Source of the DNA: a virus
IMG/VR virus record: IMGVR_UViG_3300031537_000005
Span: 1-39,200 of that record
Direction: 5' to 3' (one strand)
Length of the DNA stretch: 39,200 nt
Position 1 is the stretch's first letter. Every line of letters starts with the position of its first letter. Shown in pieces: positions 1,097 through 26,198 of the stretch. The notes under the pieces are model-generated. The model did not search any database. It worked only from the letters and a program-made list of their open reading frames with translations, and was not told where the DNA came from. Made by a program: the position numbers and the translations under genes.

Positions 1097-3060
1097 TGCC
1101 TCGCGGAAGACCGACACAAACAGGACTGCCTCAAGATCTGCCAGTAGTATCAGATAGTGAGAAAATAGCAGTTATTGTTTCTGCTTTTTATACGGCACTT
1201 GCTCTATCAGAAGATCTTGATCTTGAGACTTGGGGTCAACTTTATAGAAAATTACCGCGTGAATCATCAGCCGAGTATGGTGACTGGTCTTTACGTCGAT
1301 TTCCTTTTTTGCGGAAAATAGCGCGCGCGCTAAATCCAAAATCAAACGCCGTTGAAATCGTAGTAATGAAAGGCGCGCAACTTGGTTTTACTGAATTGTT
1401 AATTACTTGGCTGTTATACATTGCTGATGTGTATCCTAGTCCATGTATCTATACACAAAACACGGATGACGCTGTTAAGGATTTCGTAAAGCAAAAATGG
1501 AAACCAAGTGTCAAAGCTTGTGAAAAATTGTTATACATACTTGGCGAGAATAAACCAAATTATCTTTCTCGGTCATGGGACAATCACGGTTATCCTGGCG
1601 GCTTTGTCGCAATGGGCGGCGCTAGTGGATCATCTGATTTTATTAGATCAAAATCAGTTCGTTATGCTGGCGTGGATGAAGAAGATACATATAAATTAAA
1701 TGTAAGTGAACAAGGCTCACCAATTGGAATGATTAGAAAAAGACAACAGACATTTTCGGATAAGAAAATGTTTCGCTTGTCGACACCCGTGTTAGAAGAG
1801 ACTAGCACAATAAAACCAGCTTTTCTTGCTGGGTCACAAGAGTACTTTTATGTACCGTGTCCTTATTGTGGAGAGTTTTTTGTTATTAAATGGGAACAAA
1901 TAAAATATTCAAAGAAACTAGATACAAGTGGACTACCGACAGAAATATTTCTTGAGTGTCCTAGTTGTGCCGATAAGATAATAGAGCTTGAGCATAAAGA
2001 TTACATGCTTGATAATGGTGATTGGTTTTCTACAAAAAACACTGAAAATTCAGAGGAACCATTAAATAGATACAAAGTAGGCGATATTGAATTTCCATCT
2101 TTTCATCTGTCGTCATTCTATTCTCCTGTTGGCCAATTCTCTTGGCGAGATGCTATTAGAGAATGGTTTGAGTATACCGCGACAAATGATATAGAAAAAT
2201 TGAAAGTCATTATTAATCAGACTTGGGGCGAAACTTTTTCGGATGAAGGTCGTGAAATATCCACTAATTATTTGGTACAACGTCGTGAGCAATATACTAA
2301 TGAAGTGCCAGAAGGTTGTCTTGTGCTGACAGCTGGCGCTGATATTCAAGATGACCGAATTGAAATTGAGGTAGTTGGCTGGGGTATGTTCGAAGAAAAT
2401 TGGTCAATTGATTATGTTGTTATTTATGGTGATACTAGTCAATTAGGTGACTTACAAGGTTTATTACCCGATGGTCAACCGACTGTTTGGAAATTATTAG
2501 ATGATTATTTATTGACAAAATTTGAGCATCCATCGGGTTATAAAATGCCTATTGAATGCGCAATGATTGACTCACATTATAAAACAGAGGAAGTCAACAT
2601 CTTTTGCAAGCAAAGAGAGACAAGACGAGTGTATCCTATTTGTGGTATTGAGGGCTGGAGTAAAGGACTTTGGTCTTGTAATAAATCACGTCATGAAAGA
2701 TATGGTACCTTACAATATAGAGCGCATGGTTATGAGCTGAAAAATAAGATCTATGCGATGCTTAAAATAGATAATATCGGACCAGCTTATTGTCACTTTC
2801 CTATTAGAGATATTTATAATGAAGCACATTTTTATGGCCTTACTTGTGAGTATAAAGAAAGTCGAATAACAGGAGGAAGACTCAAGCTTGTGTGGGTTAA
2901 TAAGACTGGCGCACGTAATGAGCCTTTGGATTGTAGACAATATGCCTATTGTGCATTTCTAGCATATCCTGTTAATTTATCCCACAGATTGAAGAATGGT
3001 TTTGTTGAACAGAAAACACGCAAGGTGCGTGTCAAAAAATACGGGAGTGATGGATTATGA
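1096..3060 (+). CDS. Terminase large subunit, GpA family
   Basis: 654 residues, close to lambda gpA (about 641). It is the DNA-packaging motor: the N-terminal ATPase threads DNA into the prohead and the C-terminal nuclease cuts concatemers. Seen: a Walker A-like segment KGAQLGFTE at 92-100 (the deviant form typical of GpA proteins), Walker B AGVDEED at 191-197, a zinc-ribbon-like insert with C255/C258 and C288/C291, and acidic nuclease residues in GADIQDD and MIDSH. The start overlaps the preceding stop (TAATG) and the stop overlaps the next ATG. No small terminase subunit is recognisable nearby; it probably lies outside the window or is one of the small unknown genes. GpA-type terminases usually cut at a cos site, which was not located. 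Confidence 0.95.
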   Translation: MPRGRPTQTGLPQDLPVVSDSEKIAVIVSAFYTALALSEDLDLETWGQLYRKLPRESSAEYGDWSLRRFPFLRKIARALNPKSNAVEIVVMKGAQLGFTELLITWLLYIADVYPSPCIYTQNTDDAVKDFVKQKWKPSVKACEKLLYILGENKPNYLSRSWDNHGYPGGFVAMGGASGSSDFIRSKSVRYAGVDEEDTYKLNVSEQGSPIGMIRKRQQTFSDKKMFRLSTPVLEETSTIKPAFLAGSQEYFYVPCPYCGEFFVIKWEQIKYSKKLDTSGLPTEIFLECPSCADKIIELEHKDYMLDNGDWFSTKNTENSEEPLNRYKVGDIEFPSFHLSSFYSPVGQFSWRDAIREWFEYTATNDIEKLKVIINQTWGETFSDEGREISTNYLVQRREQYTNEVPEGCLVLTAGADIQDDRIEIEVVGWGMFEENWSIDYVVIYGDTSQLGDLQGLLPDGQPTVWKLLDDYLLTKFEHPSGYKMPIECAMIDSHYKTEEVNIFCKQRETRRVYPICGIEGWSKGLWSCNKSRHERYGTLQYRAHGYELKNKIYAMLKIDNIGPAYCHFPIRDIYNEAHFYGLTCEYKESRITGGRLKLVWVNKTGARNEPLDCRQYAYCAFLAYPVNLSHRLKNGFVEQKTRKVRVKKYGSDGL

Positions 3061-3668
3061 TTAAAAGGATTGCAGCATTATATATACATCCGAAAGGACC
3101 TTATTATGGACACGAACAAATAGATCCTTGGGGACTTCCTTATTTAGATGCTCGTGAGTATATTGGTCCATATCCTGTTATAGTACATCCTCCTTGTAAA
3201 CGATGGGGTAAATATTGGTTTGGTGGACCAACTAGTAAAATTAAATATAAAGTAGGCGATGATGATGGTTGCTTTAAACATGCCCTTTGGGCTGTACGTA
3301 GCTTTGGCGGTATTCTAGAGCATCCGGAAGGCTCAAAAGCTTGGGAATATTTTGGTCTAATAAAACCAAAACGGTATTCTTCTTGGATTAAGTCGGATGC
3401 TTTTGGCTATAGTTGCTATGTTGAACAATGCAACTATGGCCATAAAGCAAGAAAACCTACTTGGTTATACGCTGTAAACACTACACTATTTTCTGTAAAT
3501 AATAGTAAAGGTACTTTTACACATGCTATTGACAATTACTATTATAAAAAATATGGCCTACAAAAACTTGAATATTTGTCTAAATTTGATCGCGAGGCCA
3601 CACCTAATTTATTTTTTAATCTTTTATTGAGCCTGGCTCAATCCTGTTATGAAAGTGAGGGATTATGA
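3057..3668 (+). CDS. Divergent methyltransferase-like phage protein (PPC/EHP motifs)
   Basis: 203 residues, overlapping the terminase end by 4 bases (ATGA). The most telling features are VIVHPPCKRWG at 41-51 and GGILEHPEGS at 84-93. In cytosine-5 methyltransferases a catalytic Pro-Cys and a downstream Glu-Asn-Val occupy comparable positions; here Cys47 and Glu88 would correspond. A Gly-rich SAM-binding loop is not evident, so catalytic activity is uncertain. I recall phage proteins of this general type (IDPWGLPYLDAREYIGPYPV followed by PPC) near packaging genes, usually annotated as hypothetical. It could modify phage DNA or pool nucleotides, or be a degenerate methyltransferase fold. Family resemblance moderate, function inferred. 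Confidence 0.55.
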   Translation: MIKRIAALYIHPKGPYYGHEQIDPWGLPYLDAREYIGPYPVIVHPPCKRWGKYWFGGPTSKIKYKVGDDDGCFKHALWAVRSFGGILEHPEGSKAWEYFGLIKPKRYSSWIKSDAFGYSCYVEQCNYGHKARKPTWLYAVNTTLFSVNNSKGTFTHAIDNYYYKKYGLQKLEYLSKFDREATPNLFFNLLLSLAQSCYESEGL

Positions 3669-4018
3669 GAGTTACAAATAAAGATAGAGTTGCCCACGTA
3701 GTAAGCTGTTTATTTAATTGTGATGAAATTATTACTGAAGACTATAGTAATTTGACTACAGAACAATATGTAGTGTATTGTAGGTGGTATAAAAAATGTC
3801 CTAATACTAGTAGCCATAAAGAGGACCATATTACAATTATTAAAATGCAAACACTATTTACTAGATTAGAATCAAATAATATACAGCTTATGAGATTAGG
3901 TTTAAGTACTATAGATGTAAAAGCCTATATGAAGATGCATGGTATGTTATCTTTAGAAGAACAATCTAAAATAGCTCAAACAGAATGCTTTGATTTCTGT
4001 TTTAGAGTAGTCTACTAG
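3665..4018 (+). CDS. Hypothetical protein, 117 aa
   Basis: Starts in a 4-base ATGA overlap with the methyltransferase-like gene, preceded by GTGAGGG. The sequence is soluble and mostly helical in character, with a repeated-cysteine pattern (C15, C19, C39, C45 and two near the C-terminus in ECFDFC). No motif is recognised. It belongs to the accessory group of small genes between the large terminase and the head genes. The overlap and good ribosome binding site make it a likely real gene. Confidence 0.6.
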   Translation: MRVTNKDRVAHVVSCLFNCDEIITEDYSNLTTEQYVVYCRWYKKCPNTSSHKEDHITIIKMQTLFTRLESNNIQLMRLGLSTIDVKAYMKMHGMLSLEEQSKIAQTECFDFCFRVVY

Positions 4019-4034
4019 AAAGGATTGTGTGGTT

Positions 4035-4205
4035 ATGGAATTTGAATTTTGTGACAATAAACCTTGCTATATAAACGAAAAAGGTATCAAGGTACACATA
4101 TTTGAGCATGGCGCTTACGTGTGTAATTGTGGTGAGAAGAAAGGTGAGCCAATGTATATTGGCTTTTTGAAACGAGATAGAAAGAAGAAAAAGAAAAATG
4201 CTTGA
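4035..4205 (+). CDS. Small Cys-rich protein (56 aa), zinc-knuckle-like
   Basis: 56 residues. Two cysteine pairs (C6 with C11 in CDNKPC; C30 with C32 in CNC) flank a short beta-type core, which could bind one zinc ion. The C-terminus is a run of basic residues (KRDRKKKKKN), suggesting nucleic-acid contact. AGGATTG precedes the ATG. Short ORFs like this are easily missed; overlap with neighbouring starts and the sensible composition support it. Function unknown. Confidence 0.5.
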   Translation: MEFEFCDNKPCYINEKGIKVHIFEHGAYVCNCGEKKGEPMYIGFLKRDRKKKKKNA

Positions 4206-4305
4206 CGTTATATTTAATATTTTTATGCCTTGGCTTGGCGCAACTAACGCAATTAGTTTGTACAATTGTTACATACTACAAAGCAGGAAAATATGCAAAA
4301 TATAA
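4198..4305 (+). CDS. Possible 35-residue membrane peptide
   Basis: The ATG lies inside the last codons of the Cys-rich gene, and the frame continues 35 residues before overlapping the next gene's start. The first two thirds are hydrophobic (MLDVIFNIFMPWLGATNAIS), ending in a basic tail. The upstream sequence is A/G-rich but has no strong Shine-Dalgarno. It would keep the unbroken gene-to-gene overlap chain, which is the main argument for it. It may be non-coding. Confidence 0.3.
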   Translation: MLDVIFNIFMPWLGATNAISLYNCYILQSRKICKI

Positions 4306-4511
4306 AAAGAGTAAATAAAGGGGATAGAATAAATATTATAATTAAACCTATTAATCATAGAGAAACTGGCTATTGTCCTAAAGCAATAGCTCCTGAAAAC
4401 GGTATACTTATTGAAAGTACAGCAAGAAATTTAGATTCTGTATTTATTGGAGAGTCTCTTTTAAAGAAGCTTGGCTTTTTTACTTGTAGTAATTGGCCAA
4501 GTGTTATATAG
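4293..4511 (+). CDS. Hypothetical protein, 72 aa
   Basis: The ATG at 4293 follows AGGAAAAT and is preferred to an in-frame TTG at 4266 that has no ribosome binding site. The product begins MQNIKRVNKGDRINIIIKP and has alternating hydrophobic residues consistent with a small beta-barrel or SH3-like fold, but no family is recognised. It is the last gene before the terminator at 4558, closing the terminase-accessory transcription unit. Confidence 0.55.
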   Translation: MQNIKRVNKGDRINIIIKPINHRETGYCPKAIAPENGILIESTARNLDSVFIGESLLKKLGFFTCSNWPSVI

Positions 4512-5057: not shown

Positions 5058-5275
5058 CAGATACCGATCGTATAGCTGAGACACGTACTAGATTATCTCG
5101 ATATATTGCCGCTGAAACTGCTGTTTTACAAGGTCAAGCTTACTCTATAGGTCCGCGATCTTTGACGCGTGCCGATCTTTCTGAAATACGAAAAGCGATT
5201 ATTGATTTGTATGCTGAGTTAAATACTCTTGAGGGTGGATCTATTCGTTTACAAAGGGTTGTTCCGATAGAATGA
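5054..5275 (+). CDS. gpW-like head-tail joining protein
   Basis: 73 residues, near lambda gpW (68). gpW-type proteins sit under the portal and are needed for tail attachment. Seen: a helical N-terminus, then GQAYSIGPRSLTRADLSEIRKAIIDLYAELNTLE, which matches the general form of gpW/DUF6148 proteins (a short beta turn followed by a long helix). The start is TTG in a TTGA overlap with the lipoprotein stop; no good Shine-Dalgarno is present and no ATG exists near the expected N-terminus, so translational coupling is likely. The position directly before the portal fits the lambda order (A, W, B). Confidence 0.75.
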   Translation: MTDTDRIAETRTRLSRYIAAETAVLQGQAYSIGPRSLTRADLSEIRKAIIDLYAELNTLEGGSIRLQRVVPIE

Positions 5276-6873
5276 ATTTTTTAGATAAAATAGCTTTGGC
5301 TGTATCTCCAAAGTGGGGCGCTAATAGATTGAAGTATCGTGCTTTTGCCAATGCTGTTGGTGGATATGTAACACCCTATACTGATAAAAAATCTATGCGC
5401 GGTTTGAGATCTATTGGTCTCAAATCACCAAAAGCCGATATATCAGATAAATTGGATGGAATTAGAGCGCTATCCCGAGACGTCTATATGACTAGCGCGC
5501 TTGGCGCAGCTATTATTAAACGTCATAAGACGCAAACTATTTGTTCAGGTTTAAAGTTTCAGTCAACACCAGATCGAGACTTTCTTGGTATGACAACTGA
5601 TCAATCTCGTGCTTTTGGTAAAGAGTATGAACGTTACTTTGATTTATGGGCCGAGTCAACTTTTTGTGACATAAAAGGAAATCTTACATTTGGTCAATTA
5701 CAAGGGCTTGTGTATTTGTCGTTGTTAATGAATGGTGACTTTTTCTGGATGCCTATTTGGAGAAAACCAAAAAACTCAGAATTTCCCTTTGAATTGACGG
5801 TAAGAATAATTGACGCTGATTTAGTTCGAAATCCTTATAACGTACCGTTAGATAGGATTCAGAATGGTGTAGAAACAGATGATAATGGTGAAGTGGTAGC
5901 TTTTCATGTTTGGAATAGTTACAGTGACGGCACTGACATAACTGGTGCAGTATCTAGAAGAATATTTTCAACGCGTATACCTGTGTACACAGAACGTGGA
6001 AGAAAACAAATTTACCACGTTTTTAATCCTGAACGTTTTGATCAATCTCGAGGTTTACCAGCATTATCGAATGTTGCCGAAACGCTTAAACAATTAACGC
6101 GTTTGAATGAGGCGACAGTTATGGGGCAATTGGTGTCGTCTTTCTTTACTGTATTTGTTAAAGACGCCACTAATTTAGGTGGTGCGATTAATCCTGCTTA
6201 TACCTCTATTGATAGATATAATGAAAATCAAACTGACCCAGATAGCTTTGATCAAGATCTTGAAATGGGCTATGGAAATATTGCATATATTGGTGGCGGA
6301 AAAGACATTTCAATAGCCAATCCAAATAAGACTGACGCTGATTATCACCAGTTTTTTGATAACCAAGCAATACAAGCTTGTGGAGGTGCGAATATGCCTT
6401 ATGAACAAGCTGTAATGCATTATACAAGTTCTTATACTGCTGCGCGCGCGGCGGATAACGCTGTTTGGAAGCATAGAATTGAAGATAGGGCAATTATTTC
6501 AAACGGCTTTTGCCAACCGTTAGCTGATGAAATTCTTTTTGAATCTGTGTTAAAGCGATATATAAGTGCGCCAAAATACTTTGTGTCTTATTTGAATAAA
6601 AAATCTTACTCCAAGGGTTATTGGGTAGGTGTAGGACGTGGCTATGTTGATCCTTGGAAAGAGATAAAGGCTTCGGCCGAAGGTGTGAAAAATAAATTGT
6701 CTACAAGAGAAGATGAATACACAACGCTTTTTGGCGGTCGTTGGGATAGTATGATCGAACGGTACGCTGATGAAGAAAAACGCATAAATGAATTATTAGG
6801 TGAACAAACATTGCCGCAACAAAAGCAATTTACTGAACAGTCACAAACAGAGGATGAGACAAATGTTGATTAG
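5272..6873 (+). CDS. Portal protein, lambda family
   Basis: 533 residues, the same size as lambda gpB. The portal dodecamer occupies one capsid vertex and is the channel for DNA packaging and ejection. Recognised by the N-terminal region (ALGAAIIKRHKTQTICSGLKFQ), the FDLWAES and GDFFWMP segments, the RIIDADLVRNP block, and the C-terminal stretch with YTSSYTAARAADNAVWKHR, all characteristic of lambda-type portals. It starts in an ATGA overlap with the gpW-like gene. The tail is Gln/Glu/Thr-rich and overlaps the start of the protease gene by 11 bases. Confidence 0.92.
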   Translation: MNFLDKIALAVSPKWGANRLKYRAFANAVGGYVTPYTDKKSMRGLRSIGLKSPKADISDKLDGIRALSRDVYMTSALGAAIIKRHKTQTICSGLKFQSTPDRDFLGMTTDQSRAFGKEYERYFDLWAESTFCDIKGNLTFGQLQGLVYLSLLMNGDFFWMPIWRKPKNSEFPFELTVRIIDADLVRNPYNVPLDRIQNGVETDDNGEVVAFHVWNSYSDGTDITGAVSRRIFSTRIPVYTERGRKQIYHVFNPERFDQSRGLPALSNVAETLKQLTRLNEATVMGQLVSSFFTVFVKDATNLGGAINPAYTSIDRYNENQTDPDSFDQDLEMGYGNIAYIGGGKDISIANPNKTDADYHQFFDNQAIQACGGANMPYEQAVMHYTSSYTAARAADNAVWKHRIEDRAIISNGFCQPLADEILFESVLKRYISAPKYFVSYLNKKSYSKGYWVGVGRGYVDPWKEIKASAEGVKNKLSTREDEYTTLFGGRWDSMIERYADEEKRINELLGEQTLPQQKQFTEQSQTEDETNVD

Positions 6874-8722: not shown

Positions 8723-9772
8723 ATGGGACATTTCACTATTACCGATTTCACGCCACGCGACATGCTCCGATTATTGGAACAAATGCCGCGTCCTACAAAT
8801 TTTCTGCAATCAATGTTTGTGAAAGAGCGCAACACAACCAATAAAACTGTATTGGATATTGACAAGATCTTCGGTCGTCAGTTGGTTGCGAGATACTCTT
8901 CTCGAGAAGGGGACATGAACGTTGTTGGCAAAGGTGGATTTTCGACAAATCACTTTGTAGCGCCTTATGTGACAGAAAAATTCTGTTATAAGCCTAGCGA
9001 CGTTGACGTTCGTGGCGCTGGTCTTACTGTGTATGACGATCAAGTTGCTTATTTGTCTCGTTTTGTTGAGCGCGCCATGAACGATTTGGAAGATCGTTTT
9101 GATCGCCTTGAGGAGTTGCAACTTGCTGAGGCATTGCAGGAAGGCACTGTCACTGTTGACGGAAAAGAGACGAATTACACGATTGATTTTGAGCAAAAAG
9201 ACACACATCTTGTCGACTCTGTTGATACAGATTGGAGTGACCCAACTGCTGATATGCTTGGCGATATTGCTACATATTCACAATTGATCGCCGATACAGG
9301 CGCGTCTCCACCTAATATCGCAGTTTGTGGTGGAAAAGCGGGTGGGTGTATTCCAAAAAATACTGCTTTTGTCAATTCTCTTGATAATCGTAGAATTTTG
9401 ACGGGGGAAATTAATTATCAACAGTTGAATAGACAACGTGCAACATATATCGGTCGAGTAATGGGAATTGGCTTTGATGTTGCTGTGTATGTTTATTCAG
9501 GTATTTATGAGAAAATGGTCGATGGGACGCGCACAGCCTACAATTATATTGATCCTTGGAACGTGATTCTTGGTTCGACAAATGCTGATGTGAGGTTTCA
9601 CTACGCGAAAATTGAAAACTTCAAAACTGGTGATTTTATTGGTACTCGTTTTCCGAATCAAACTGAAGATGATGACGGTCGTCAACGGGCTATTTCGCTT
9701 GAGTCTTCTCCTCTTGTCGGCTTTCACGATACTGACGCGTTTGTTCGTCTTACCGTAGGATCGGATGATTGA
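8723..9772 (+). CDS. Major capsid protein, lambda gpE family
   Basis: 349 residues (lambda gpE 341). HK97-fold shell subunit. The start (ITDFTPRDMLRLLEQM followed by LQSMFVKE) and the motif VAPYVTEKFCYKPSDVDVRG are typical of the gpE family, where the segment APxIxEKxxI precedes the spine helix; the later WSDPTADMLGDIATYSQLI is also characteristic. GGAGG lies ten bases before the ATG, and the gene lies directly after the decoration gene. It should be among the most abundant proteins of the virion. Confidence 0.93.
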   Translation: MGHFTITDFTPRDMLRLLEQMPRPTNFLQSMFVKERNTTNKTVLDIDKIFGRQLVARYSSREGDMNVVGKGGFSTNHFVAPYVTEKFCYKPSDVDVRGAGLTVYDDQVAYLSRFVERAMNDLEDRFDRLEELQLAEALQEGTVTVDGKETNYTIDFEQKDTHLVDSVDTDWSDPTADMLGDIATYSQLIADTGASPPNIAVCGGKAGGCIPKNTAFVNSLDNRRILTGEINYQQLNRQRATYIGRVMGIGFDVAVYVYSGIYEKMVDGTRTAYNYIDPWNVILGSTNADVRFHYAKIENFKTGDFIGTRFPNQTEDDDGRQRAISLESSPLVGFHDTDAFVRLTVGSDD

Positions 9773-10103
9773 TATGTGCGATCAAATAAAAGTGAAAGTA
9801 ACAAAAAACTCTATTCTGTATCGAGGAAAACCACGAACTAGTGCAAGCGATCCTTTTTATATGCCGCGTGAACTTGCACTAAAAATGCTTCATAATGGTG
9901 CGCATATTGAAATAGTCACTGATGAGATAATTGATGATGAAGAAATTATTGATAAGGAAGAAAGTACTGATAACGAAGAAATAATTGATGATGAAGAAAT
10001 TATTGATAAGGAAGAAAGTACTGATGACGAAGAAATAATTGATGATGAAGAAATTATTGATAAGGAAGAAAAACCGAAAAAGAAAAGACGAAAAAAGAAG
10101 TAG
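9765..10103 (+). CDS. Small head-associated protein with acidic repeat tail
   Basis: 112 residues. The N-terminal half (IKVKVTKNSILYRGKPRTSASDPFYMPRELALKMLHNGAHIEIV) resembles small phage proteins that commonly follow the capsid gene, where lambda has FI. The C-terminal half is an acidic repeat of an 18-residue unit built on IIDDEEIIDKEEST, ending in a basic block KPKKKRRKKK. The start is ambiguous: ATG 9765 overlaps the capsid stop, and ATG 9774 lies just after. The acidic tail could contact the terminase or portal by charge, as proposed for gpFI, but that is inference. Confidence 0.65.
   Translation: MIDMCDQIKVKVTKNSILYRGKPRTSASDPFYMPRELALKMLHNGAHIEIVTDEIIDDEEIIDKEESTDNEEIIDDEEIIDKEESTDDEEIIDDEEIIDKEEKPKKKRRKKK
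9927..10075 (+). repeat. 54-bp coding tandem repeat, about 2.8 copies
   Basis: Copies at 9927-9980 and 9981-10034 differ at only a single base (AAC versus GAC in the STDNEE/STDDEE codon), and a partial third copy runs from 10035 to about 10075. Each unit encodes 18 residues of the IIDDEEIIDKEESTDxEE type. Near-identity at DNA level indicates recent expansion by slippage or recombination, and copy number may vary between isolates. Confidence 0.9.
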
Positions 10104-10108
10104 ATTAA

Positions 10109-10504
10109 ATGGCAGTTTCCGGAATATTTGAGTGTTTTAAATATGCTCGTTCAATAAAAAAGATAGATTTATTGAATGATAGTATTGTTGTTTGTTTGAT
10201 GCTTGAAAGCTACGAACCCAATTTTGACAACGATACTTTTTACTCAGATATTCCGGAAACTTTGCTTTTATCAGAAACACTTCTACTTGGTAAGTATATT
10301 GATAATAATATTTTTAAGGCTGCACAACCAATATTTGAAAATATCAGCGTTGGCGAAATAGTACAAGGAATTATATTATATAGAGACGCTGATTATATAG
10401 AAGATACTTTACTAATTGCCTATTTTAATTTTGTTGATTTAGTTGTAACACAAGGTGAACTTGTGACTATAGTTTGGAATGAACAAGGTATAATTACCTT
10501 GTGA
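10109..10504 (+). CDS. Probable virion protein, 131 aa
   Basis: The sequence has the form seen in many phage structural proteins of this position: IDLLNDSIVVCLMLESYEPNFDNDTFYSDIPETLL, then a beta-rich second half with YIEDTLLIAYFNFVDLVVTQGELVTIVWNEQGII. The next gene has the same general plan, so the two may be distant paralogues. There is only a weak ribosome binding site (AGTAGATTAA). Function unknown; a minor head or head-tail surface protein is likely from context. Confidence 0.6.
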   Translation: MAVSGIFECFKYARSIKKIDLLNDSIVVCLMLESYEPNFDNDTFYSDIPETLLLSETLLLGKYIDNNIFKAAQPIFENISVGEIVQGIILYRDADYIEDTLLIAYFNFVDLVVTQGELVTIVWNEQGIITL

Positions 10505-10517
10505 GGAGTGAGATAAA

Positions 10518-10952
10518 ATGGCATTAACAGCTGTTAAATTTTACGCTGCAATAACGCGGCAAGCGTCAGGGGCAATTGATTGGACTTCTGGGTCACTTGT
10601 AGTAAAAGCGTCTTTATCAAATGTTGAACCAACACAAGCGACTGATAGTGTATGGGCTGATATTTCAGCTGATGAGCTTGCTGATGGTAATGGTTATACA
10701 ACTGGTGGGGAGACTCTGACTATTGGTACAAAAGAATTATCGGGAGGTATTTTTATAGTTCCAGTTGTTGCAGACGTTGTCTGGACGGCAACGGGTGCTA
10801 TGGGGCCATTTCGTTTTATTGCTTTACGCGTAACAAATGTTTCTGGAGAACCTTTGTTGTCGTATTATGATTATGGGTCTTCTTTGAATTATATAGGTGG
10901 CGAGAAATTCACGCTACCCTTGAATGGTAATAATATCGTTGAAATTAATTGA
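10518..10952 (+). CDS. Probable virion protein, 144 aa (paralogue-like of preceding gene)
   Basis: 144 residues with TSGSLVVKASLSNVEP followed by DSVWADISADELADGNGYTTGGETL and a beta-rich C-terminus ending SYYDYGSSLNYIGGEKFTLPLNGNNIVEIN. This layout (a strand pair, a short DxxWxDI-like segment, GNGYTTGG, further strands) is typical of small virion proteins in phages with lambda-like heads. GAGGAGTGAG precedes the ATG. Exact role is unknown; it may decorate the head, or be a component of the long neighbouring fusion protein's complex. Confidence 0.65.
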   Translation: MALTAVKFYAAITRQASGAIDWTSGSLVVKASLSNVEPTQATDSVWADISADELADGNGYTTGGETLTIGTKELSGGIFIVPVVADVVWTATGAMGPFRFIALRVTNVSGEPLLSYYDYGSSLNYIGGEKFTLPLNGNNIVEIN

Positions 10953-10962
10953 TAGGTGATCT

Positions 10963-13923
10963 GTGGCGACAATAACGTCAGCACAAAGCGGTAATTGGTC
11001 AAGTGGATCTACGTGGATCGGTGGAACGTCTCCTGGAGATGGGGACATTGCCGTTAGAACTGTAAATCACGTTATAACAATTGACCAGTCTATTACTGTC
11101 GGCATAAATGGTGGGCCATATAGTGACGCTATACGTGGGCCATCATCTACAAGTGCCGATAGTGGAGGTTTTGTTATTGCCGACAACGTTGTTGTTACGT
11201 TAAAAGGATCATTTATTTCTGGCGGGGATGGCTCTTATATAACACTTGGAGTTAGTGCTGGTGGTGCTAAGATTGTTTTCTCATCTTCTTTATCAAGTGA
11301 TCAAAAGTTATCTGTCGGAAATGGCGACGGTGTAAAAGGAACGTTTACAGTTAATGGCGCTGTAAGTAATTTTTGCGAGATAGAGAATCAAGGCTCGCAT
11401 AATGTATATTTTCAAGCCGGTAATCCTGGCGCTTGGTGGTATTATTGTGAGTCTTGGTACGGTTCTTATTTGTATTTAAAGAATATCGCTGGCGCTGTTA
11501 TTGGTGGTGAATGTCAAATAGATCATTGGATTTTTGACGCTGATAGTATCAGTGATTCTTTTTGGCCGTTGCCACAAATACAAGGCGATAAAGATTTTAT
11601 AATGAATAATTGTTCTTTTTTAAATCCTAGCGCTACAGTTTGTTGGTTCTTTGATGACGTGACTACGGGTAGTAGAACATTACAAAATAATGTATTTGTC
11701 AGTGAATTATACTGGAGTGGTGCTGCTACGTGGGATGGTCTTGTATTATTAGGTGGTACAAATGGAGACGGTGTAAATAAAGGCACAATACAAAATAGTT
11801 TTGTAGATCCTGCAGCTGGTAGCGGTTTAAATGGCTTTGTGTTTTCTGTCGTAAAAGATAATTTTGTGTATTATCCGACTGGTGATAATCCACATTTTTT
11901 ATTTGCTACTCCTGACGAGTCTACAGAATTCGACGGTAACGTTTTTGAATTTGGATCGGATTGGTCTAGTGACCCAGGAGATTGTATATTGTGTACTGGT
12001 GGCGGGTCTGTTAGCCACACAACTATAATTAAAAATAATATCGAATTACCTAACGCGAGTGGTAGACAATCCGGAACAATGGTTTCTTTATGGGCCGATA
12101 CTTATAATGATATACAAATTTATAATAATACATTTTATACTGGTGTTAATGTTGAAGATAACGGTAGCGTAAGTTTAGTATCGGCTTTTTATAATAATTT
12201 ATCATACGGTCCAAATGGTCAAAACCTTACCAGTTTTAGCGGTGGCGGTATTGTCGAGGATGTGTATGATGATGCAGACTATAACAGCGCTCAAAATTTA
12301 TCCGACCCATATGTTGATAATTCAAAATTCGCTATTTCGCCTGGAACAAATGATTTTAATGCCGACCCTTCGTTTGTTGATAGTACAAGAGATTTAGCTA
12401 AGTGGGCAGTTGAGGAACTTGGGTCAAGCTCGGGTACTGAGGCTTTGAGGCGTATTGATGCAATAAACGCATTGATTGCTCAAAACGATCCTAATGATTC
12501 TAATTATAATGTTAATGGAACGGTGAACAATTTATTAACTTATATAAAGACAGGTTTTTCGCCCACAAATTCTGACTATAGCACAGCTGGAAAAGGTGGT
12601 AGCTATCCAAGTTATATTGGTGCAAAAGATGTTCAAGTACCCATTGAAAATGACGCTTATTTAGATCCTACTATTTTGTCATTGGTTAACTATTCATTTC
12701 TTCCACTTCGATCATTGATTGGAAGTATTGATAACACGTTTCTTATTTTGAGTGTGCATGATACTCAACCATTGAGACAATTACAGCCATTATTGGACAC
12801 TGTGTACTTAAGCACGTCACTCTATCAGTTTGACGGCTTGCGACAATTAATTAGTGATTTGAGTACAGTTAGTAATGTTTTAACTGTATCATCTATTCAA
12901 CCAATTAGGGCACTAAACGCAGATCTGAGCAAATATATTTTTTCATTATTAGTGTCTGATATTTCCCCAATAAGTGAAGAACTTATCAATAATATAGCTG
13001 ATATTGATACAATAAATTTTATTCTTACATTATTTGGAATACAGCCTATTAGAGCGTATTCTCCAGAAATTGACGCGTGTATTTTTAATTTTTCAAATTA
13101 CAGCTTTCAACCTACGCGAGAACTTATTGCGGAATTAAATTCCGTAACACTTGAACATTATATGATTGTGTTTGATGCCTTGCGTTCTTTGAATGCTTCT
13201 TTAAGCAGCATATCATTTGCTCTATCAGTTATAGACACTAGCGCACTAAGATCTTTAGTTGGTTCGCTTAATACTTTGATCAATACTTTTTCGTTATATC
13301 AAGTTGCTCCTTTACGAGAATTATTGGTTGACCTTTCAACATTATTACTTGGAACAAATATACTAAATATTGATGCTTATAGAGAGGATATTGCACCAAT
13401 ATTACCTTACACAGTTAGTCTGTCTGTTAAATCGATTGCGGCTTTGCGAGCGCTTCAAAGTGCATTAAATGCAGTGATCTTTAGTTATAACTTTATTGAC
13501 TTAGACCCTTTGGCGTTTAGATCTTATGTCGTCGATACAATATTATCAGCTGTAGCAGAAAGTTTTTCAATTGGTTCGGGTGAAATTGCGTATACTGATT
13601 TTGAAAAGCAGTTGCAGACAGACCTAGAGAATGTGTTCTTTTCTGACTTCAAAAAGAAAGTGCCTTGTTATTATTATCACGCAAATGGAAAAATAATAGA
13701 AAGTTACCCGTGTATATTTGACGATCCTTCGGTAAATGTAACTATAGATAAAGCTATTGTGAATGGCATACAGCCGACAATTCAAATACCATCACATTTA
13801 TTAGTACATCCAGTACAGCCAAGAAAAGACTACTTAACAATAGGTGGTGTGAAGTATACAGTTGAGAAATGTGATCAAGACGGTTTCGGCGTCACAGATT
13901 TAACGCTAAGTGTATCAAAATGA
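10963..13923 (+). CDS. Giant composite virion protein: beta-rich region, 22-aa repeats, head-closure-like C-terminus
   Basis: 986 residues starting at GTG after AGGTGA. Residues 1 to about 470 are rich in Gly/Asn/Ser with alternating hydrophobics and begin ITSAQSGNWSSGSTWIGG, the form of G8/parallel beta-helix proteins such as tailspikes. Residues 572-862 contain about 13 repeats of about 22 residues with consensus close to LSVxxIxPLRxLxxxLxxx. Residues 875-986 (DFEKQLQTDLENVFFSDFKKKVPCYYYHANG to TIGGVKYTVEKCDQDGFGVTDLTLSV) resemble head-closure/FII-type joining proteins, which normally stand alone before the tail terminator. So it may anchor a fibre-like domain at the neck. The stop overlaps the next gene (ATGA). 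Domain borders are approximate; function is inferred. Confidence 0.6.
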   Translation: MATITSAQSGNWSSGSTWIGGTSPGDGDIAVRTVNHVITIDQSITVGINGGPYSDAIRGPSSTSADSGGFVIADNVVVTLKGSFISGGDGSYITLGVSAGGAKIVFSSSLSSDQKLSVGNGDGVKGTFTVNGAVSNFCEIENQGSHNVYFQAGNPGAWWYYCESWYGSYLYLKNIAGAVIGGECQIDHWIFDADSISDSFWPLPQIQGDKDFIMNNCSFLNPSATVCWFFDDVTTGSRTLQNNVFVSELYWSGAATWDGLVLLGGTNGDGVNKGTIQNSFVDPAAGSGLNGFVFSVVKDNFVYYPTGDNPHFLFATPDESTEFDGNVFEFGSDWSSDPGDCILCTGGGSVSHTTIIKNNIELPNASGRQSGTMVSLWADTYNDIQIYNNTFYTGVNVEDNGSVSLVSAFYNNLSYGPNGQNLTSFSGGGIVEDVYDDADYNSAQNLSDPYVDNSKFAISPGTNDFNADPSFVDSTRDLAKWAVEELGSSSGTEALRRIDAINALIAQNDPNDSNYNVNGTVNNLLTYIKTGFSPTNSDYSTAGKGGSYPSYIGAKDVQVPIENDAYLDPTILSLVNYSFLPLRSLIGSIDNTFLILSVHDTQPLRQLQPLLDTVYLSTSLYQFDGLRQLISDLSTVSNVLTVSSIQPIRALNADLSKYIFSLLVSDISPISEELINNIADIDTINFILTLFGIQPIRAYSPEIDACIFNFSNYSFQPTRELIAELNSVTLEHYMIVFDALRSLNASLSSISFALSVIDTSALRSLVGSLNTLINTFSLYQVAPLRELLVDLSTLLLGTNILNIDAYREDIAPILPYTVSLSVKSIAALRALQSALNAVIFSYNFIDLDPLAFRSYVVDTILSAVAESFSIGSGEIAYTDFEKQLQTDLENVFFSDFKKKVPCYYYHANGKIIESYPCIFDDPSVNVTIDKAIVNGIQPTIQIPSHLLVHPVQPRKDYLTIGGVKYTVEKCDQDGFGVTDLTLSVSK
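12676..13548 (+). repeat. About 13 diverged ~22-residue repeats within the 986-aa protein
   Basis: Repeats are visible at protein level only: for example YSFLPLRSLIGSIDN, HDTQPLRQLQPLLDT, YQFDGLRQLISDLST, SSIQPIRALNADLSK, FGIQPIRAYSPEIDA, YSFQPTRELIAELNS, VIDTSALRSLVGSLN, YQVAPLRELLVDLST, KSIAALRALQSALNA. The invariant core is (P/A)LRxL followed about six residues later by a second Leu/Ile. Spacing is 21 to 24 residues. The DNA has diverged, so the array is old. A strand-helix solenoid is the simplest reading. Confidence 0.75.
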
Positions 13924-14471
13924 AAAACACACAAAGATCACTTATTCGACAGTATTTAGAACTTTTGATAAAAACAAAAGTTGCTGTAGGTGATCGTGTT
14001 TTTATAAATAGAGACCTAGAGACGTCACCATTGGTTTACATTGATTTGCCTTGTGTATTGATTGTATTTAATGATGATTCGTTCAATCCTATTGTTGGGT
14101 CTAATAATAAAGTTGATGAATACGAAAATATTCTAGATATTTTTATTATTCCAGTTGTGAGTATACCTGACAGTGAAAACGCACAAGATACTATAGATAA
14201 TTTAGAACATGATATTATTCGAGCACTATATGACGATTATAAATTTTCTAAATTATTGGCGAATTATGATCCACTAAAAGAATTTAATGCTGGGTTAACA
14301 ATGGGTCATTGTGTAAAATCAGTAACACCTTATGTCTTGACGTCGAAAACTGATATTGCAACAATAGCAAATTCAATAAATATAAATATAAAATATAATC
14401 TTCAGTCTTGGAGCAATGAAAAACTTGTTGATTTTCTATCCTTTGGGATAGACGAAAAAAATGGAGGATAG
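13920..14471 (+). CDS. Tail terminator/completion protein
   Basis: 183 residues. It begins RSLIRQYLELLIKTKVAVGDRVFINR followed by DLPCVLIVFNDD, which is the usual opening of tail terminator proteins (gpU/Mu gp37-like) that cap the tail tube and join it to the head. The middle (NILDIFIIPVV, DTIDNLEHDIIRALYDD) also fits the alpha/beta fold. It overlaps the preceding stop by 4 bases (ATGA) and lies directly before the sheath gene, the expected place. Assignment rests on form and order rather than a diagnostic motif. Confidence 0.7.
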   Translation: MKNTQRSLIRQYLELLIKTKVAVGDRVFINRDLETSPLVYIDLPCVLIVFNDDSFNPIVGSNNKVDEYENILDIFIIPVVSIPDSENAQDTIDNLEHDIIRALYDDYKFSKLLANYDPLKEFNAGLTMGHCVKSVTPYVLTSKTDIATIANSININIKYNLQSWSNEKLVDFLSFGIDEKNGG

Positions 14472-23607: not shown

Positions 23608-25452
23608 ATGGTAGAAGAATACCCAAGAATACAAAGAATTGAAGCGCTAGTGTCAGCTATTAATCCTGGACAAGTGTGCATTGAGCCAAGTGATGATGTT
23701 GACTTAGGCTACAGAATGTTTTGTTACAAGGATCTAGCCGATCCACCAGTTTCTTATAAACTGCTGTCCAAAGGGAAGCCTGGCCTTTTATTGTCACTTG
23801 TATTAAGTGGTTTGGCTGGTGATATAGGACTAGTTAGACACACAACTACTGGCTTGCTTATTGGTGGTAAAATATCGGTAGATACTTTTAATACATATTT
23901 GACCGATGGTCCTTTGATCAAAGATTGTGTAACATCTTTAGCTAAAGACGGTGAATCAGAATTACAAGGTGACCTTGTTTTATATGAAGGTGCAAATGTA
24001 ACGATCACTCAAGAAGTGGATGGTTTTACAATTGCGTCAACTGGTGGCGACGGTGTTTCTGGTTTGACTCCAGGAGCTATTCTGTTTGGTAAATCAGATG
24101 GTACGATTGCGGAAGACTATACTAATTTACATTATACAGCGTCAGAACTACTTTTGCAACATAAATCAAATACAATAGCTACCTCAGCTACGCTTGAAGC
24201 GTTTACCACTGGCGCGGGCAACATAAATAATGCGACGGCGAGATTACTTGCTGTAAAAGACGATAATTTTGTTAGTGGACGGGCGGAAGCTTTTGTTTAT
24301 TCGCAGCACGCTAAGGTGGGTTTACAAGGACCAAGATCTTATGTGCAAGCGTATAATACAAGTCATGAGTCTAATATATCTTCTAGCGCTTTTGTAGAAG
24401 CTTTGACAAGTGGCAACGGTTCTCCAATAGCACATTTAGGTATACAAATTACTGACGTTGGGGAATATTTAAGGGTTGCTGTTCAAAAAGATCGTGTGTC
24501 AATAGTTTCGACAGGAACTGAATTGTTTTTTATTAGACCAGGAATAACACCAGCTGTAGTTGATTTTGTCTTTTCTGACGCCCATGGTAGCGTGTCTACT
24601 AAATCTATAAATTGCTTGAATGACCAAACTAATAATAGCGCTAGTTTCAGCCTTAGAGTTTTTTCAGCTGTTGACACAGAAATAATTGATACAACAAGCA
24701 GTAATTTAACTCTTGAGTCATCAATAAATAATAGTGCTTACCCTGCAAGCAGTGTCGCTACTGAAGCATTATTTGGATCGCATGCGCTCAATACTGGCGA
24801 AGCAAAAACAATAATTCGATCTTGTGTTGGAAGTGATTTGACGTATGCTCCAAAAATTGAACTTGACGGCTCTGATACGATAAAATTCGCTGACCAAAAC
24901 AGGTATACAACTAATTCGTCTTATCGTTGGAATACTGCCGGTATCGCTTTATCTAGAGAGACTACTAGCTATAATCAATGGTTAGCGATGAAACTATTAG
25001 GAAATAATTATGAAAATTCTTTATTTGATTTATTTCTAGAAGGTTGCGGTTATATTGTCAGTACTCAAACTGTTGGGGCAGAAATAAAAGATTTAAAAAT
25101 TTCTCCTGACGACGTGTATTCTCCTTTTGCATTAAATAATGGTCGCATAATGTTTTTTGAAGTGATTGTATTAGCCGCGTCAGTTGGTAGTATTGGCGTA
25201 CAGGCTTGGAAATATGACTGGCTCATTGGAAGACTAGATCCTATAAGTGGAGGTCCAAGATCGCCCGTTTCTAATGCACCTTATTTTTCTAGGGGCGCTG
25301 ATGTCGCAGCATATTGTCATTTTTTTATAAACGAAGATACAAATTACAAATTAACTATACGAGTATCAGGCATTAGTGGCATAACTACTAATTATAGTGC
25401 TCGAATGATTAGAAAATGTGAAGTCACTGGTGGTTATGGAATGACAAGTTGA
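23608..25452 (+). CDS. Tail fibre protein (receptor binding candidate)
   Basis: 614 residues. ATG 23608 follows GAGG, so the in-frame TTG at 23596 is not used. The first 140 residues form a unique connector (EEYPRIQRIEALVSAINPGQ). The remainder is beta-rich with Gly/Ser/Asn, typical of trimeric fibres, and includes GDLVLYEGANVTITQEVDGFTIASTGGDGVSGLTPGAILFGKSDG, a segment common in fibre shafts. The end (ADVAAYCHFFINEDTNYKLTIRVSGI) resembles C-terminal tips of phage fibres. Position after the gp48-like baseplate gene supports attachment there. Receptor unknown. Confidence 0.75.
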   Translation: MVEEYPRIQRIEALVSAINPGQVCIEPSDDVDLGYRMFCYKDLADPPVSYKLLSKGKPGLLLSLVLSGLAGDIGLVRHTTTGLLIGGKISVDTFNTYLTDGPLIKDCVTSLAKDGESELQGDLVLYEGANVTITQEVDGFTIASTGGDGVSGLTPGAILFGKSDGTIAEDYTNLHYTASELLLQHKSNTIATSATLEAFTTGAGNINNATARLLAVKDDNFVSGRAEAFVYSQHAKVGLQGPRSYVQAYNTSHESNISSSAFVEALTSGNGSPIAHLGIQITDVGEYLRVAVQKDRVSIVSTGTELFFIRPGITPAVVDFVFSDAHGSVSTKSINCLNDQTNNSASFSLRVFSAVDTEIIDTTSSNLTLESSINNSAYPASSVATEALFGSHALNTGEAKTIIRSCVGSDLTYAPKIELDGSDTIKFADQNRYTTNSSYRWNTAGIALSRETTSYNQWLAMKLLGNNYENSLFDLFLEGCGYIVSTQTVGAEIKDLKISPDDVYSPFALNNGRIMFFEVIVLAASVGSIGVQAWKYDWLIGRLDPISGGPRSPVSNAPYFSRGADVAAYCHFFINEDTNYKLTIRVSGISGITTNYSARMIRKCEVTGGYGMTS

Positions 25453-26198
25453 TACCAATTTATTACATAAATATGGATAAATCGATAGATCGACGTCATT
25501 ATATAGAGCAAGTATTTTCAAATGAAAATATAATACGTGTAAGTGCGCTTGATGGCCTGCTTTTTTCTAACGGTGCTTTTGATAAAGCTAGTAGACCTAT
25601 TTGGGATCAATGCGTCTATAACGCATTAGTAGCTTATAAAATTATTGGGTATGACGCAAAAAATTATTACTCGCTATATCCAACAGAATTTGCGTGTAAC
25701 TTTAGCCACAGAAAAGCTTGGGTTAAATTTATCAAATCCGGGTGTCGATGGGGAATTTTTCTTGAAGATGATGTTGAATTTGCTGATATAAAGACGTTTA
25801 AAAACATACTTAACTATATACCAAACGATTGTGATTTTTTTTACTTATGCAATGAAAGTCACCCTGGTAATAGATTAATGCTATACAATGACGGTCAAGT
25901 GAAATGGTCACGAACATTAATGGCTTATATGATTTCTAATAGATTTGCCACACAAGCAATTGAAGCAATGCTACCTGTGTATTATCAAACTGATTGGCAA
26001 ATACCTTTTCGATTATTCAAAAGCTTTGAGAATACTTGGCGTGAACAACAACCAAATTGGCGTGAATTTCCACGATTTAAAGCGTATGGCTTGAAAACTA
26101 ATGACGTCAGTATTATTAAGCATTCTCATTTTGCAAATACAACAACGTTTACACAAAACGGTCGTAAAGATTGGCTAGATAATGATTCTTGGATGTGA
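25449..26198 (+). CDS. Glycosyltransferase family 25 (LPS-type)
   Basis: 249 residues. Family 25 enzymes transfer hexoses to lipooligosaccharide. Visible marks: N-terminal IPIYYINMDKSIDRR (the IxxINLDxxxxR start), TEFACNFSHRKAWVKFIKSG (79-97), and LEDDVE (105-110), the acidic metal/donor site. The start is TTG in a TTGA overlap with the fibre stop; an in-frame ATG at codon 9 would delete the conserved opening, so TTG is preferred. Being placed amid tail fibre genes, it could glycosylate the fibres, or modify host LPS to block superinfection. Enzyme class confident, substrate inferred. Confidence 0.85.
   Translation: MIPIYYINMDKSIDRRHYIEQVFSNENIIRVSALDGLLFSNGAFDKASRPIWDQCVYNALVAYKIIGYDAKNYYSLYPTEFACNFSHRKAWVKFIKSGCRWGIFLEDDVEFADIKTFKNILNYIPNDCDFFYLCNESHPGNRLMLYNDGQVKWSRTLMAYMISNRFATQAIEAMLPVYYQTDWQIPFRLFKSFENTWREQQPNWREFPRFKAYGLKTNDVSIIKHSHFANTTTFTQNGRKDWLDNDSWM

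Follow-up and report, generated by a model that had tools for sequence, protein, structure and literature searches.

A gpFII-type head-closure domain at the C-terminal end of a 986-residue fusion protein, a putative stopper with a built-in neck arm, in an uncultured contractile-tailed phage

Stoppers, the head-closure proteins whose ring seals a phage head once the DNA has been packaged, are normally small stand-alone proteins, and the appendages carried by phage necks are, to our knowledge, separate proteins docked on the neck. The gpFII-type stoppers form hexamers, and in lambda their N-terminal helices make a socket around the barrel of the adaptor (lambda/R4C stopper geometry: PMC10721106; PMC10276861). 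Several kinds of neck appendages have been described. For example, the neck passage structures of the lactococcal 936 and TP901-1 phages end in beta-helix or carbohydrate-binding tips and are regarded as auxiliary devices for binding; they are separate proteins whose anchor consists of a BppU-like ring at the N-terminus and a coiled coil (PMC6669499). Other examples are the fibritin whiskers of T4, the collar spikes (gp40) of XM1 and the neck fibres of A-1(L), long appendages of the head-tail joint that are likewise separate proteins docking on neck rings (PMC10491603; PMC10966104). Finally, the stopper of Staphylococcus phage 812 carries an extra external beta-sandwich domain, and thus shows that additions to the exterior of the ring are tolerated (PMC12886913).

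The locus described here belongs to an uncultured contractile-tailed virus of bacteria, represented by an IMG/VR contig of which a stretch of 39,200 nt (hereafter the window) was analysed. In this phage, a single open frame on the plus strand (10963-13923) encodes a protein of 986 residues and about 105 kDa, with a GTG start preceded by AGGTGA. The genes on its 5' side are, in order, those for the terminase gpA, the portal, the head protease, the decoration protein and the major capsid protein, followed by two small phrog_644 genes; on the 3' side come a short gene and the genes for the tail sheath, the tube, the tape measure and the baseplate. Judged by these neighbours, the phage is contractile-tailed, its head being lambda-like and its tail Mu-like. 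The features of the region, in which L003 designates a sister phage introduced below, are as follows.

10109-10504, plus strand: gene for a 131-residue phrog_644 protein, upstream of the cassette and conserved in L003
10518-10952, plus strand: gene for a 144-residue phrog_644 protein, the first gene of the cassette, using the ribosome-binding site (RBS) that in L003 belongs to the stopper gene
10533-13527, plus strand: approximate extent of a cassette of about 3 kb, absent from the sister phage and lying at codons 5-6 of the stand-alone stopper gene
10963-12624, plus strand: N-terminal beta-rich module, residues 1-554, 74% identical to the product of L002 positions 2779-4503
12625-12666, plus strand: linker, residues 555-568, between the end of the L002 homology and the first repeat
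12667-13527, plus strand: thirteen 22-residue repeats, residues 569-855, consensus TVILSLSVYSFQPLRSLIASLD, delimited by autocorrelation and a repeat profile
13528-13923, plus strand: head-closure (stopper, gpFII-type) domain, residues 856-986, and stop codon, from PF05354, phrog_82, 8gtf and 1k0h profile matches and a model with Z 10.0
13920-14471, plus strand: next gene, tail terminator by position, 90% identical to that of L003

Two other features of this part of the genome can be mentioned. The 131- and 144-residue phrog_644 proteins, encoded side by side (10109-10952), are weakly alike, and the sister phage has the first only. In addition, the gene behind the capsid gene (9765-10103) encodes an acidic repeat of the EEIIDDEE type ending in KKKRRKKK, and its counterpart in the related contig L005 (10050-10402) is built of other units (DNDETI); this difference in repeat units suggests that the gene changes rapidly.

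The C-terminal part of the 986-residue protein was recognised as a stopper by several profiles. When residues ~856-986 were scanned alone, PF05354 (Phage_attach) gave 28.8 bits, above the Pfam cut-off of 26 bits, whereas within the whole protein the same family scored 24.5 bits, below it; phrog_82 (head closure Hc1) matched the domain with an E-value of 4.6e-8. A profile built from seven related sequences, all seven of which matched phrog_82, retrieved among solved structures the R4C stopper (8gtf_M, E 8e-9) and lambda gpFII (1k0h, E 0.004). The predicted structure agrees with these matches. In a second AlphaFold run, the pLDDT was 78-86 over the last ~50 residues and 64-71 over the first strands of the stopper, with a less certain stretch (46-47) between them, and the modelled residues 895-986 formed a beta-sandwich that could be superimposed on R4C 8gtf_M and lambda 8k37_M with Z 10.0 and an rmsd of 3.3-3.7 over 85-86 residues. 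After these stoppers the list of structure matches consisted mainly of phage neck and stopper proteins, and the 50 best viral matches came from proteins of 91-258 residues. In front of the sandwich, where known stoppers have a helix that contacts the adaptor, a helix was predicted (residues 877-893) at low confidence, with pLDDT mostly <50. The gene order also fits, since the domain lies after the capsid genes and before the tail genes, as the stoppers of L003, L036 and L123 do. An earlier note, made from the letters of this DNA, had proposed that the last 110 residues are an FII-like head-closure protein in its expected place; both the identity and the place are borne out, with a domain of about 130 residues, and the match to head-closure folds that the note had set as a check was obtained. 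The same note had put the domain directly before the tail terminator: the position is correct, but the name of the following gene, which shares 4 bases with the end of the fusion gene, is positional only, as its sole match is phrog_6774, a family of unknown function.

The domain resembles the lambda gpFII and R4C stoppers in its profile, its beta-sandwich, the order of genes from capsid to tail and, tentatively, the low-confidence helix predicted ahead of it. It differs from this family of roughly 90-150-residue stand-alone proteins in that 855 residues precede it, so that the small independent product usual for gpFII is not what the 986-residue frame encodes. The C-terminal domain is a member of the gpFII-type stopper family, and the protein as a whole is a fusion.

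The first of the two added parts is a module that exists on its own elsewhere. In L002 (IMGVR_UViG_3300039149_000028), a stand-alone protein of 574 residues is 74% identical to residues 1-554, and its gene is located between those for a 688-residue fibre-like protein and a 200-residue protein, with a head-tail adaptor gene just downstream and, further upstream, genes that by eye are protease- and capsid-like. The L002 protein is thus similar to the N-terminal module and is also encoded in a head-neck gene region, but it is unfused, lacks the 22-residue repeats and belongs to a phage whose capsid and adaptor genes differ. Since the adaptor, the capsid and other virion proteins of that phage differ from those of the window phage, the module has moved between unrelated phages within the same genome region. 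Another neck protein with an N-terminal addition is the L002 adaptor itself (5270-6289), which has an extra N-terminal part of ~90 residues that looks fibronectin type III-like by eye. Comparison of the module with its L002 counterpart gave dN 0.21 and dS 1.3, and dN/dS values of about 0.16 for the module and 0.10 for the stopper domain indicate purifying selection on both.

The L002 protein was the one relative of this module in the viral contigs searched; none was confirmed in genome contigs, in which a weak match of 44 residues appeared in one planctomycete genome. No Pfam family exceeded its threshold in the module, LbH_GLGC matched one of its two members (0.026), and a motif for binding or for enzymatic activity did not turn up. 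The ~470 residues of G8/beta-helix character announced in the earlier note do correspond to a separate module, although the stand-alone homologue carries it on to about residue 554. The G8/beta-helix reading is plausible but weakly supported: Pfam detected no G8 in the module even at E 10, and the one link is a chain of resemblance, in which the first ~50 residues are similar to the start of a 981-residue protein of Curvibacter phage PCA1 that itself has a weak G8 match below the cut-off. A weak match of residues 124-172 (11332-11478) to the CuA cupredoxin of nitrous-oxide reductase (E 0.001), also present in the L002 homologue, was rejected as a chance or remote resemblance because the second Cys and the His of the copper site are absent at the expected places. 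A full-length AlphaFold model computed with four sequences (pLDDT 31.8) was left uninterpreted, and over the module and the repeats the predictions stayed mostly at pLDDT <50, without a usable fold.

The second added part is the repeat array. Its autocorrelation peaks at 22 residues (0.337, compared with a maximum of -0.16 in 500 shuffles), and 13 copies can be laid over residues 569-858 with a step of 22 residues, apart from two steps of 24. Arg occupies one position in 11 of the 13 copies and Leu, two positions further on, in nine, with a mean pairwise identity among copies of 23%. These results uphold the count of about 13 proposed before, as well as the statement that the repeats match no family. 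Searches of Pfam, PHROGs, PDB sequences, phage records and viral contigs yielded no relatives; nor did tblastn against phages, a profile run over all fetched loci, peptide patterns, or one degenerate DNA pattern in viral contigs reveal any, and three pattern matches were judged to be due to chance. Structure prediction, which had been informative for the stopper domain, was not so here, and almost the whole array remained at pLDDT <50 in the second model. The last copy passes into the N-terminal segment of the stopper without a separate linker. Because stoppers are normally small and independent, the domain might be released by cleavage or be made separately from a weak internal start. A cut near residue 855 would leave a small stopper in the particle and release the N-terminal part or turn it into an independent decoration of the head or neck, which its stand-alone relative presumably is. 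Both end modules stand alone in relatives, and so are able to work apart, and the phage encodes a head maturation protease; however, we identified neither a cleavage signal nor a relative in which such processing occurs, and the repeats continue into the stopper with no separate linker. We regard this processing as unlikely.

How the fusion arose can be read from the sister phage L003 (IMGVR_UViG_3300031364_000014), whose capsid protein, sheath and gene after the stopper are 89, 92 and 90% identical, respectively, to those of the window. In L003 a stand-alone gene of 136 codons encodes the stopper; it follows immediately after the 131-residue phrog_644 gene and has the RBS GAGGAGCGAGGTAAA and an ATG at 5986. 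The counterpart of this RBS in the window (GAGGAGTGAGATAAA, ATG 10518) starts the 144-residue gene instead. DNA homology between both phages stops near 10535, and homology of the stopper protein resumes at residue 857 (13531); therefore about 3 kb separates two points that touch each other in L003, and no stopper residue after codon 6 has been lost. Stoppers are also stand-alone in the outgroups L036 (sheath 48% identical) and L123 and in three more distant contigs, with frames of about 115-152 residues, so by parsimony the fusion is the derived state; an ancestral fusion, with L003 as a deletion, was set aside because both outgroups have the stopper alone. A cassette comprising the 144-residue gene, the mobile beta-rich module and the 22-residue repeats would thus have been attached, in frame, to the stopper gene at its 5' end and would have taken over the RBS and start of that gene.

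The whole fusion was found in one contig only. PF05354 matches occurred in about 90 places in 398 Pseudomonadota genomes; the long frames around some of them resembled fusions, but the six proteins examined were not, being either read-through of GC-rich DNA before the normal start or unrelated surface proteins, and the remaining long frames were judged by length alone. The occurrence of the full fusion in a single contig and the absence of the cassette from the sister phage would be expected of an assembly chimera or of a dead insertion allele in the metagenome. Such an artefact or relic is nevertheless very improbable, given that the frame is open through 986 codons, that both end modules are under purifying selection, that the repeats belong to neither relative and that the stopper is intact after codon 6. 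The take-over of the RBS is also relevant to the possibility that the 3' end of the fusion gene yields a separate stopper by internal initiation. The stretch from residue 788 to residue 891 contains six GTG or TTG codons in frame, two of them (GTG and TTG at 13474 and 13510) just ahead of the domain. None has a good RBS: the best pairing with the anti-RBS among the six is -3.0 kcal/mol, and that of the nearest two is -1.6 and 0 kcal/mol, while among 20 window genes that were checked, 12 reach -5 kcal/mol or stronger. Together with the loss of the original stopper RBS to the 144-residue gene, these weak candidates lower the likelihood of a separate start, although a few genes of the window likewise lack a clear RBS; we consider it quite unlikely.

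The reading that we favour, and hold to be rather probable, is that of a derived fusion in which a stopper with an N-terminal arm of 855 residues takes its place as six copies in the neck ring, the arms serving as shaft and distal contact. We infer one polypeptide in the virion, with six outward arms and a binding function. The six copies would form the ring between the adaptor and the tail terminator, each held by its C-terminal beta-sandwich; as the N-terminal helices of the lambda stopper make a socket around the adaptor barrel, an arm joined before this helix could leave the neck sideways or outward. The repeats would act as shaft or spacer, and the distal module would make an accessory contact to the host surface or matrix, a role suggested for the lactococcal neck structures with beta-helix tips. 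Six repeat arms with beta-rich tips would then amount to a collar or whiskers that need no separate docking protein, and the neck probably carries six built-in appendages absent from known relatives. What this architecture would share with the lactococcal neck passage structure is an accessory borne by the neck, which in two lactococcal groups has a beta-helix tip of the pectin-/alginate-enzyme type (PMC6669499); the order is reversed here, and the anchor is the stopper itself. With T4 fibritin, XM1 gp40 and the A-1(L) fibres it would have in common long appendages at the head-tail joint, although here module and stopper belong to one reading frame, and the profile searches made gave no link between the fusion protein and any of the three. 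The phage 812 stopper also has an addition on the ring exterior, but that addition is a small domain, unlike the long, repeat-bearing N-terminal arm of the fusion. That the arms might be auxiliary surface-binding devices is a guess by analogy, because the tip of the A-1(L) neck fibre showed no binding to its host (PMC10966104). Elsewhere, the window contains a glycosyltransferase family 25 gene of the LPS type (25449-26198), between the tail-end and lysis genes. A more speculative idea, to which we give little credit, is that the gate retaining the genome and a neck fibre are one molecule, each of six stopper subunits bearing a repeat shaft and a distal module that binds surfaces, so that a fibre touching the cell could exert a mechanical effect on the ring that keeps the DNA in the head.

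If the stopper does carry its own arm, the DNA gate, although essential, can bear some 90 kDa of added protein, and the phage neck would offer a natural site for display at six copies per particle. It would also mean that modules pass from the head-neck region of one phage to that of an unrelated one by fusing directly with an essential gene. The existence of paired states, a sister phage with a stand-alone stopper and another phage with a stand-alone module, makes this origin testable.
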